A stretch of DNA of 64,000 bases from Sedimenticola sp. (GTDB lineage Bacteria > Pseudomonadota > Gammaproteobacteria > Chromatiales > Chromatiaceae): NCBI GenBank assembly GCA_002869585.1, contig PKUO01000104.1:1-64000 (forward strand), in the 5' to 3' direction. Position numbers and translations under genes: made by a program. The notes under the pieces are model-generated. The model was not told the DNA's origin. It was given only the letters and a program-made list of their open reading frames with translations, and ran no database searches. Within the stretch, counting starts at the first letter, position 1; each line of letters starts with the position of its first letter. This document shows positions 56,357-61,729 of this stretch, one piece after another.

Positions 56357-56629
56357 CTAGTTTACGGCATCTTTCAGTGCTTTGCCAGCCTTAAATGCAG
56401 GATTTTTTTATGCCTTGATTTCAATCGCCTGACCCGTCTGTGGGTTACGTCCTGTACGGGCTGCACGCTCGCGTACGGAGAAAGAACCGAAGCCCACGAT
56501 GGTCACCTGGTCGTCTTTCTTCAGTGCGCCGGTAATGGCTTCAATCATGCCGTCCAGTGCACGTCCTGCTGCAGCCTTGGAAATATCAGCGCTATCCGCC
56601 ATTGCATCTATCAATTCCGTCTTATTCAT
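56357..56629 (-). pseudogene. hupB: HU-family DNA-binding protein, in-frame TAA at codon 74
   Basis: The frame begins [20 protein letters not shown] and covers 90 codons plus TAG, the usual HU length. Codon 74 (56408-56410) is TAA, so the ordinary product is 73 residues, ending [17 protein letters not shown]. Beyond it the same frame continues with 16 codons that read KNPAFKAGKALKDAVN, the normal HU end. A Ser codon (TCA) is the likely ancestor since relatives have KASKNP there; only a C-to-A change is needed. The lost part contains the terminal helix, so the short protein is probably impaired. Consensus error is possible. Confidence 0.72.
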
Positions 56630-56900: not shown

Positions 56901-59357
56901 TTAGTGCTGGGTAACCCCGCTACGTTTTTTTGCGGTTCGCTTTCGTGTGGTCGTCTTGGGCTTTACAGTCGATACGACCGCTTCTTCATCGCCGCCCTGT
57001 CTGGGTTGTGGCATGCGCGTCAACGCAATTTCCAGCACCTGATCAATCCAACGTACGGGTTTTATGGTCAAATGCTTCTTTATGTTGTCAGGGATCTCCA
57101 CCAGATCACGCTCATTCTCTTCGGGAATAATCACTGTCTTGATCCCCCCGCGATGAGCTGCCAGCAGTTTCTCCTTCAGGCCGCCAATCGGTAATACCTC
57201 GCCCCGCAGGGTGATTTCACCGGTCATGGCGACATCCGCCCGGACAGGAATCTGTGTCAATGCGGACACCAGACAGGTACACATACCGATACCGGCGCTG
57301 GGGCCATCTTTCGGTGTTGCCCCTTCAGGGACATGGATATGCACGTCCGACTTCTGGTGAAAATCCGGTTCCAGACCGAGCATGCCCGCACGACTACGAA
57401 CAACGGTCATTGCCGCCTGGATCGACTCCTGCATCACCTCACCCAGCTTACCGGTATGGCTCAGCCTGCCTTTACCCGGCACCAGCGCGGCCTCGATAGT
57501 CAACAGTTCGCCACCCACTTCGGTCCATGCCAGACCGGTTACCTGTCCAATCTGGTCATGCTCTTCAGCCTCGCCATAGCGGAATCGCTGAACGCCCAGG
57601 TATTTGTCCAGGCTGTTTGCGGTGATCACCAGTGTTTTCGCAGGCTTTTTCAGCAGTATATCTTTCACCACCTTGCGGCAGATCTTTGAAATCTCTCGCT
57701 CCAGGTTACGTACCCCGGCTTCACGGGTGTAATAGCGTACGATATCCCTGATGGCGGCCTCTCTGATCTGAAGCTCACTCTTCTTCAACCCGTTGTTCTC
57801 CATCTGCTTGGGTACCAGATAGCGAGTGGCTATATTTACCTTCTCATCTTCGGTGTAACCGGACAGGCGGATCACCTCCATGCGGTCCAGCAGTGCCGGG
57901 GGAATATTCAGAGTGTTCGCGGTTGCCACGAACATCACTTCGGACAGATCGTAATCCACCTCCAGATAGTGATCGGCAAAGGTGTGATTCTGCTCCGGAT
58001 CAAGCACTTCGAGCAGCGCGGAGGCTGGATCACCGCGAAAATCCATCGCCATCTTGTCGATTTCATCCAACAGATAGAGGGGGTTTCTGGTGCCGATTTT
58101 CGATAGATTCTGGATGATTTTACCGGGTAATGCCCCGATATAGGTGCGGCGATGCCCGCGTATTTCCGCCTCGTCGCGCACGCCGCCGAGCGCCATGCGG
58201 ACAAACTTACGGTTGGTTGCCCTAGCGATGGACTGTCCGACCGAGGTCTTCCCCACGCCTGGGGGACCGACCAGACAGAGTATCGGACCTTTGAGTTTGC
58301 GCACCCGCTGTTGAACTGCAAGATATTCGATGATGCGCTCTTTGACCTTCTCCAGGCCATAGTGATCGTTTTCCAGAACTTCCTCGGCAGCGGCCAGATC
58401 ATTGCGGATCTTGCTGCGCTTTTTCCAGGGAACACTGACCAGGGTATCGATGTAGTTACGAACCACGGTAGCCTCGGCCGACATCGGCGACATCAGCTTG
58501 AGCTTGTTCAGCTCGCCCATCGCCTTATCCTTGGCTTCTTTGGTCATGCCGGCGGTTTCAATGCGGTTGGTCAGATCTTCAATTTCATTAGGCGCATCAT
58601 CCAGTTCGCCCAACTCCTTCTGGATCGCCTTCATCTGCTCATTCAGATAGTACTCGCGCTGGTTCTTCTCCATCTGGCGCTTGACGCGGCCGCGAATACG
58701 CTTTTCCATCTGCAGCAGGTCATTTTCCGACTCCATCAGCCCCATCAGGTGTTCCAGACGTTAACGCACAATGGCCATTTCCAGGACCCGCTGCTTATCT
58801 TCCAATTTCAGCGACATGTGCGCCGACATGGTGTCCGCCAGGCGACTGGGGTCTTCGATACTGGAAAGTGAGGTGAGCACTTCCGGGGGTACTTTCTTGT
58901 TGAGCTTGACGTATTGATCAAACAGAGCGGTCGCTGAACGCGCCAACACCTCCATCTCCCGCTCGTCTATGCCCATCTCTTCCTGAACAGACCGGAATTC
59001 AGCCGCAAAATAGCTCTCTTGGGTGACGTAATTGTCCAACTGCGCACGTGCACTACCCTCAACCAGCACCTTCACGGTACCGTCAGGCAGTTTGAGCAGT
59101 TGCAGAATATTGGCCAGTGTCCCCACCTCATACAGATCCTTGATTTGCGGATCATCGGTATCTGCGCTTCGCTGTGCGACAAGCAGGATCTGCTTGTTGT
59201 CTTTCATTGCGGCATCCAGGGCGAGAATTGACTTTTCACGACCCACAAATAGCGGAATAACCATATGGGGATAAACGACTACATCCCTCAGAGGCAGAAC
59301 GGGAATGATGTTACTTGAGGCTGTCGTCATCGCTGAGGTGATATCGCTTTTCCCCAT
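56901..59357 (-). pseudogene. lon: ATP-dependent protease Lon, interrupted by one in-frame TAA
   Basis: The frame from ATG 59357 (AGGAG upstream) to 56901 is 818 codons long and holds every Lon part in order. The N domain begins IIPVLPLRDVVVYPHMVIPL; the AAA+ Walker A is GPPGVGKTS; the protease Ser is in GPSAGIGM and Lys in [13 protein letters not shown]. Codon 199 (58761-58763) is TAA, giving a 198-residue N fragment; a new ATG at 58745 could start a 614-residue piece. E. coli Lon has Glu here (NERLEYL against R-stop-RLEHL), so GAA-to-TAA is likely. Real loss of Lon function and a consensus error are both possible. Confidence 0.78.
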
Positions 59358-59596: not shown

Positions 59597-60871
<1,275 letters not shown>

Positions 60872-61084: not shown

Positions 61085-61729
61085 TTATTTCTCGGTAGCG
61101 GCATCCGGACGTTTGTCCAGAACCTGGTCAATCAGGCCGTATGATGTGGCATCTTCGCCACTCATGAAGTTATCACGTTCGGTATCGCGTTCAATGACCT
61201 CGAGGGGCTGTCCTGTATGGTGGGCCAGAATATGATTCAGCTTATCACGCAGTAACAGGATTTCCCTGGCATGGATCTCAATATCGGTCGCCTGACCATG
61301 AAAACCGCCCAGAGGCTGATGGATCATCATCCGGGAGTGTGGCAGGCAGAAACGCTTGCCTGCCTGACCACCGGCCAGTAGCAGCGCACCCATGCTCGCC
61401 GCCTGCCCGATGCACATGGTGCTGACGTCCGGACGGATGAACTGCATGGTGTCATAAATTGCCATGCCAGCGGTTACAGAGCCACCCGGAGAGTTGATAT
61501 AGATGTGAATATCCTTATCCGGATTTTCCGACTCAAGAAACAACAACTGAGCCACAATCAGATTGGCCATATGGTCTTCAACCTGCCCTACCAGGAAGAT
61601 CACGCGCTCTTTCAGCAGGCGGGAATAGATATCATAGGAGCGCTCACCGCGGGATGTCTGTTCGACAACCATCGGAATCAATCCCAGATTTTTTGTATCC
61701 AAAGCACCCATGTGGCTGTTATCGGTCAT
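61085..61729 (-). CDS. clpP: ATP-dependent Clp protease proteolytic subunit ClpP
   Basis: 214 residues with the catalytic Ser in [14 protein letters not shown], His in [13 protein letters not shown] and Asp in the [11 protein letters not shown] region. It is the barrel protease paired with ClpX. It lies 24 bases downstream of tig, in the standard tig-clpP-clpX order. Confidence 0.98.

Follow-up and report, generated by a model that had tools for sequence, protein, structure and literature searches.

The window, that is, the whole stretch of 64,000 nucleotides analysed here, forms part of one contig (C24) of a Sedimenticola sp. genome that comprises 3.93 Mb in 109 contigs and is rated 100% complete. 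On its minus strand lie hupB, which encodes a protein of the HU-beta type, and the adjacent gene lon, each interrupted by one in-frame TAA, together with clpX and clpP, each of which carries a missense change of one and the same mutation class (G:C>T:A). The features that matter for the analysis, with the evidence for each of them, are as follows.

56357..56359, minus strand: TAG, natural end of the hupB frame (translation and relatives)
56360..56629, minus strand: hupB (HU-beta type), 90-codon frame broken at codon 74 (translation, homologue alignment and NCBIfam)
56408..56410, minus strand: in-frame TAA, hupB codon 74 (TCA in the same-genus relative G001)
56904..59357, minus strand: lon, 818-codon frame broken at codon 199 (NF008053 pieces and homologues)
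58761..58763, minus strand: in-frame TAA, lon codon 199 (GAG in G001, GAA in the relative G004)
59768..59770, minus strand: clpX codon 368, Glu (GAA) versus Ala in 87 homologues, G:C>T:A missense (alignment)
61298..61300, minus strand: clpP codon 131, His (CAT) versus Gln in 66 homologues, G:C>T:A missense (alignment)

The minus-strand translation of hupB starts with MNKTELID and spans 90 codons from 56629 to 56360, and it confirms the TAA at codon 74 with the rest of the frame running on to codon 90, as well as the run of seven A that starts inside the stop codon, both of which had been described in an earlier note on this DNA. The best family for the gene is the NCBIfam HU-beta family NF007945, which matches all 90 positions with 134.9 bits when the stop is read as X and is again the best match, with 105.6 bits, without read-through, both scores falling under the curated cut-off of 157 bits. 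The sequence is thus of the HU type and not of the IHF type, IhfA and IhfB being encoded by separate genes. Gammaproteobacterial HU-beta proteins, which hupB resembles in this match over 90 positions (under the cut-off) and in adjoining lon, are products of 90-91 residues with an end like FKAGKALKDAVN, whereas the product as written stops at residue 73. Such a 73-residue product would presumably be without the last strand and helix of HU. The sequence beyond the stop, KNPAFKAGKALKDAVN, is still conserved.

Among 94 distinct hupB relatives, codon 74 encodes Ser in 82, Ala in 10 and Thr in 2, and is a stop in none; every aligned row from other genomes is 90 or 91 residues long, and no family truly ending at residue 73 was found among these relatives. 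The stretch reads GCT TCA AAA AAT CCT in G001 and GCA TAA AAA AAT CCT in the window, so that codon 74 differs by one base, C>A (TCA to TAA), which agrees with the TCA ancestor assumed in the earlier note. A homopolymer indel, a concern raised there, is rejected since the number of bases is the same as in G001, and the assembly moreover looks like a short-read one. Hence, the hupB stop is present in the assembly and, as judged from these sequence comparisons, is a single G:C>T:A change that belongs to a widespread set.

A second HU gene, which had been suggested as a point to check, could have made up for the loss of hupB. However, the search of the whole genome yielded four matches to the HU/IHF family, namely hupB itself, IhfA (C32), IhfB (C96) and a Lys-rich HU-fold protein (C101), leaving hupB as the only ordinary HU gene, and compensation by a second one was rejected. 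The HU/IHF-fold protein on C101 (L004:1498-2010; G000:C101:77200-77493) has a Lys/Ala-rich N-terminal tail whose composition we take to be histone-H1-like.

The neighbouring gene lon does carry the nonsense codon that had been claimed, a TAA at codon 199 of an 818-codon frame, and matches NF008053 in two pieces, the N-terminal one at positions 11-189 and the C-terminal one at positions 197-776. The genome studied is alone with a stop at position 199 among 96 aligned rows (its own included), in which this position is occupied by Glu in 33, Lys in 14, Ala in 14, Gln in 10 and by other residues. The GAA ancestor assumed for this stop is plausible in view of GAG in G001 and GAA in G004, although the site is too variable to prove it. 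Among the matches listed, most of the closest lon genes belong to Sedimenticola bins or other bins of the Chromatiales type, and a Lamellibrachia endosymbiont is also one of the relatives listed. In G001 and G004, too, hupB adjoins lon. Much had been made of two neighbouring genes being broken. Nevertheless, about 0.65 pairs of stops as close as these two are expected by chance among 20 stops; therefore, the proximity needs no explanation, and a functional link between the two losses was rejected.

The search for further genes with a single stop, which the note had also proposed, was carried out on 1.37 Mb of the 3.93-Mb genome (1,368,652 non-N bases, window included) with a phase-specific Markov model that detects single stops inside coding frames, a simple codon score having proved too noisy. 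When G:C>T:A stops were simulated in genes, 64% of the sites passed the thresholds. There were 91 candidate rows (49 + 42), of which 18 were accepted as internal and 73 dropped; the latter comprise three rows in a decayed transposase (L174), one site at which the same-genus genome stops too (L147), an fdx/iscX boundary (L155) and rows that visual inspection assigned to gene ends or antisense frames. With hupB and lpxR added by homology, 20 genes with one internal stop were obtained: hupB, lon, a fleQ-like activator, a znuC-like ATPase, sixA, fdhA, adhC, a metallo-beta-lactamase-fold gene, wzc, a TonB receptor, an M23 peptidase, sulP, cca, a sensor kinase, nadE, a narX-like kinase, a dihaem cytochrome, ackA, mazG and lpxR. 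These names were assigned by resemblance and are, for several of the genes, presumptive. Coding sequence goes on behind each of the 20 stops, and a Pfam domain spans the stop in wzc, the sensor kinase, the narX-like gene, the cytochrome, lpxR and cca. For mazG, where two stretches pass, the best one (24-97 of 259) does not include the stop. No internal stop was present in the ABC-ATPase domains of this genome that were listed out of 59 matches.

The same scan of 400 kb of G004, used as a control, gave 20 rows and no confirmed stop, two of the rows being without a Pfam match and the others being boundaries by eye. The excess of stops over this control amounts to P = 0.02 if no control stop is counted, and is not significant (P = 0.28) if both of the unmatched rows are.

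Most of the stops that can be traced share a mutation class, as the earlier note had proposed for hupB and lon, and the pattern reaches beyond the window. The 20 stops comprise 9 TAA, 10 TAG and 1 TGA, against 8.8, 8.1 and 3.1, respectively, expected from G:C>T:A changes. Relatives carry Glu or Ser, which fits this class, at 12 of the 14 stop sites with a readable residue (P = 5.5e-6 against the 26% expected if every base change had the same rate), a set that excludes wzc, both kinases and the cytochrome. Besides hupB, the residue is Glu in both G001 and G004 for lon, the fleQ-like gene and the M23 peptidase; Glu in G001 for fdhA and adhC; Glu in G001 and Ala in G004 for sixA; Glu in G004 for the metallo-beta-lactamase-fold gene; Ser in G004 for the TonB receptor; and Ser in two G004 genes, only 45% identical, for sulP. 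Alignments to solved structures give Glu, Glu and Asp for nadE and Glu in all three cases for ackA. The znuC-like site, with Arg or Ser in relatives, is ambiguous, and the Gln found at the lpxR site in G004, the one relative seen, is unexplained by G:C>T:A. The cca site aligns weakly to Ser, and mazG gave no clear alignment.

Missense changes point in the same direction. In a stretch of ribosomal-protein genes (L136:1-12000), 11 residues at otherwise invariant columns are unique to this genome, and G:C>T:A accounts for 7 of its 10 single-step changes versus 53 of 275 in 29 relatives (P = 0.001); one example is a Trp-to-Cys change in a gene that we take to encode S3. Unique changes of any class at invariant columns of this stretch number 0 in G001, 5 in G004 and 2 in G016. 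In lon, hupB, clpX and clpP taken together, both of the two single-step changes at invariant sites are G:C>T:A, versus 39 of 137 in other loci.

A three-way comparison of this genome with G001 and G004 over 6,153 codons places 57, 20 and 104 G:C>T:A changes at codon positions 1, 2 and 3 on its own branch and 44, 17 and 153 on that of G001, with 45 versus 85 at fourfold sites. These position counts make the events look unfiltered by selection, and no own-lineage surplus at third positions was found among these codons, in a test that a surplus below about 0.8% of sites would escape (hand estimate). In a pairwise set of 63 genes (20,011 residues) compared with G004, no surplus of G:C>T:A missense was found in conserved context (19:18); over all contexts, G:C>T:A changes outnumber the reverse at both nonsynonymous (301:226) and synonymous (731:476) sites, the transitions being 216:213 and 1991:1776, respectively. 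This surplus may predate the split from G001, as the sequences suggest, since G004 is richer in G+C (58.1% versus 54.6%) and the synonymous part occurs equally on the G001 branch.

Nonsense changes occupy 0.069% of the sites capable of them (CI 0.042-0.107; 0.062% for the 18 scan finds alone), and missense changes occupy 0.38% of such sites at invariant columns (0.17-0.72), an interval clear of the former. The rarity of nonsense relative to missense looks as if selection had removed some nonsense in living cells, yet the two rates do not settle whether the changes are artefact or real mutation.

The alignments to 110 frames of G004 (31,397 residues) and 49 of G001 (9,656 residues) contain no frameshift row in the genes of this genome; some of these frames are antisense, and hence they are no clean gene counts. 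The same homology comparison gave 27 stop rows versus G004 proteins and 14 versus G001 proteins, of which the accepted ones lie in 11 of the 20 genes named above; these counts represent no rate, since the loci were largely fetched for their broken genes. In the reverse control, 11 stop rows and one frameshift row (in a tRNA region) appeared in G004 and none of either in G001. The G004 rows were all set aside as antisense frames, tRNA region or alignment edges, a longer opposite-strand frame being present at several, not all, of the stop rows. Moreover, when 70 contig ends were compared, three pairs turned out to share an overlap of exactly 99 bases, presumably a mark of de Bruijn assembly from short reads. 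The longest contigs reach 323 kb, and neither 16S nor 23S was found in this genome, despite its completeness rating, 16S being missing from 6 of the 9 genomes searched, this one included. Taken as a whole, the genome looks like a short-read bin.

The hupB stop is probably damage or error and not the origin of a new, short HU. We favour, with a probability of roughly one half, an oxidised-guanine error fixed in the consensus of a low-complexity short-read library over a recent burst of hypermutation. According to this explanation, the hupB stop would be one of many G:C>T:A substitutions spread over the assembled genome and arising outside selection: 8-oxoguanine (8-oxoG), formed by oxidative damage in the DNA sample or library, would pair with A, and the damage would then have been fixed in the short-read consensus. 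HU with all of its 90 residues and an unbroken Lon would then be made in the living organism. This reading is supported by the dominance of one class, its wide spread, the lack of frameshifts in the compared genes, the intact relatives, the 99-base contig overlaps, the missing third-position surplus in the three-way comparison and the open frames of mutY, mutM and miaA, and the known 8-oxoG sequencing artefact resembles it both in the single class of change (C>A/G>T; 12 of 14 stops, and 7 of 10 and 2 of 2 missense changes, with lpxR against) and in having no indel component. PMC6417284 describes read errors of the C>A/G>T type that are specific to a sample and may stem from 8-oxoG stress. The literature searched contained no paper that dealt with 8-oxoG in metagenome-assembled genomes or with errors in their consensus.

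Several observations nevertheless speak against an artefact. Firstly, the known artefact usually affects a minority of reads, and its entry into the consensus, as required here, would need few template molecules; contigs of up to 323 kb with 99-base overlaps suggest a fair depth, which should keep random read errors out of the consensus and, thus, a low-complexity library has to be assumed. Secondly, a pure artefact should hit all types of site alike, yet the rate of nonsense is below that of missense at invariant sites, although the conserved context in the pairwise set with G004 gives no missense surplus. Thirdly, the lpxR residue does not fit, the stop excess loses significance with both extra G004 rows, and over all contexts there is a G:C>T:A surplus relative to G004, even if it may predate the G001 split. 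Finally, we take most of the broken genes to be dispensable, a pattern that real mutation would give as well. If the artefact reading is right, several dozen genes are falsely broken in a genome rated 100% complete (20 in one third), and single stops tracing to Glu and Ser codons offer a simple test to reveal such genomes; if the changes are real, this is a wild hypermutator of unknown cause.

A real, recent and largely unpurged episode of G:C>T:A hypermutation in a clonal population, brought about by loss of 8-oxoG repair or by oxidative stress and leaving HU and Lon truncated in living cells, is the main alternative, a tentative one that carries some weight. It would account for the dominance of one class and for the deficit of nonsense, as selection on live cells would produce, and the contig-end overlaps suggest an assembly deep enough for its consensus bases to be real. 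Mutators of the GO-system (mutY/mutM) or miaA type cause the same base change with genome-wide scatter, and PMC5793043 describes G:C>T:A changes in stored isolates, there read as probably due to oxidative stress, and miaA mutations that raise this class. However, the frames of mutY, mutM and miaA are open in this genome, and structure alignments, for mutY with the E. coli protein, show that MutY keeps SEIMLQQTQ, LPGIGRSTAGA, LDGNV and its cysteine motifs, while MutM retains PELPEVET at its start and a zinc-finger end, features with presumed roles in function; they speak against a gross loss of MutY or MutM, if less so against a subtle one. Furthermore, a third-position surplus would be expected if a mutator had persisted for long under purifying selection, and none is seen here (104 versus 153, and 45 versus 85 at fourfold sites) down to the detection limit of about 0.8% of sites. 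It would also be costly to lose the sole ordinary HU gene. That a natural Sedimenticola-related population lives as a G:C>T:A hypermutator although MutY, MutM and MiaA appear intact, and copes with losing Lon and its only ordinary HU, is, in our opinion, rather unlikely.

Relaxed selection, which the earlier note had offered beside damage, a mutator and consensus error, is the one of these causes that is disfavoured, as there are no frameshifts in the aligned genes and, in the three-way comparison, no third-position surplus of its own lineage. Ordinary pseudogene formation, as in a host-restricted lineage, would be consistent with the scattered single stops, the transposase-like gene with several stops in L174 and the Lamellibrachia endosymbiont among the relatives. 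However, pseudogenes typically combine frameshifts, deletions and several classes of change, and here the aligned genes contain no frameshift, one class explains 12 of 14 readable cases and the coding fraction is 0.88, which makes this explanation improbable.

Lon degrades HU in E. coli, and a functional 73-residue HU, perhaps tied to the loss of Lon, might be suspected where both genes are broken side by side; nevertheless, it is very improbable, for no compared relative has a short HU, the sequence past the stop is still conserved and chance provides for so close a pair. Even less credible is readthrough or recoding of the stops in vivo by ochre or amber suppression, with full-length HU and Lon being made. 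TAA and TAG form 19 of the 20 stops, with coding sequence continuing past each; however, these codons are also the ends of 214 and 200, respectively, of the 891 long frames used for training, the replaced residues differ (Glu, Ser) and the 12 tRNAs detected in 61 scanned sources, which cover part of the genome, include no suppressor-type anticodon.

Some further observations were made along the way. The adhC, fdhA and metallo-beta-lactamase-fold stops lie within 20 kb of one another on contig C28 (L163), above the average density. The nadE stop (L286:10984-10986) falls between the glutaminase-like and synthetase parts, the latter being open behind it, and nadE is the only match in this genome above the NAD synthetase cut-off. 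The transposase-like gene with several stops (L174:13169-13546) is presumably IS66-like. A cbiM-like frame on the minus strand of L278 (about 1030-1081) has ATC at the expected start codon with an AGGAG motif ahead of it, a change that is not G:C>T:A and was left out of the set.
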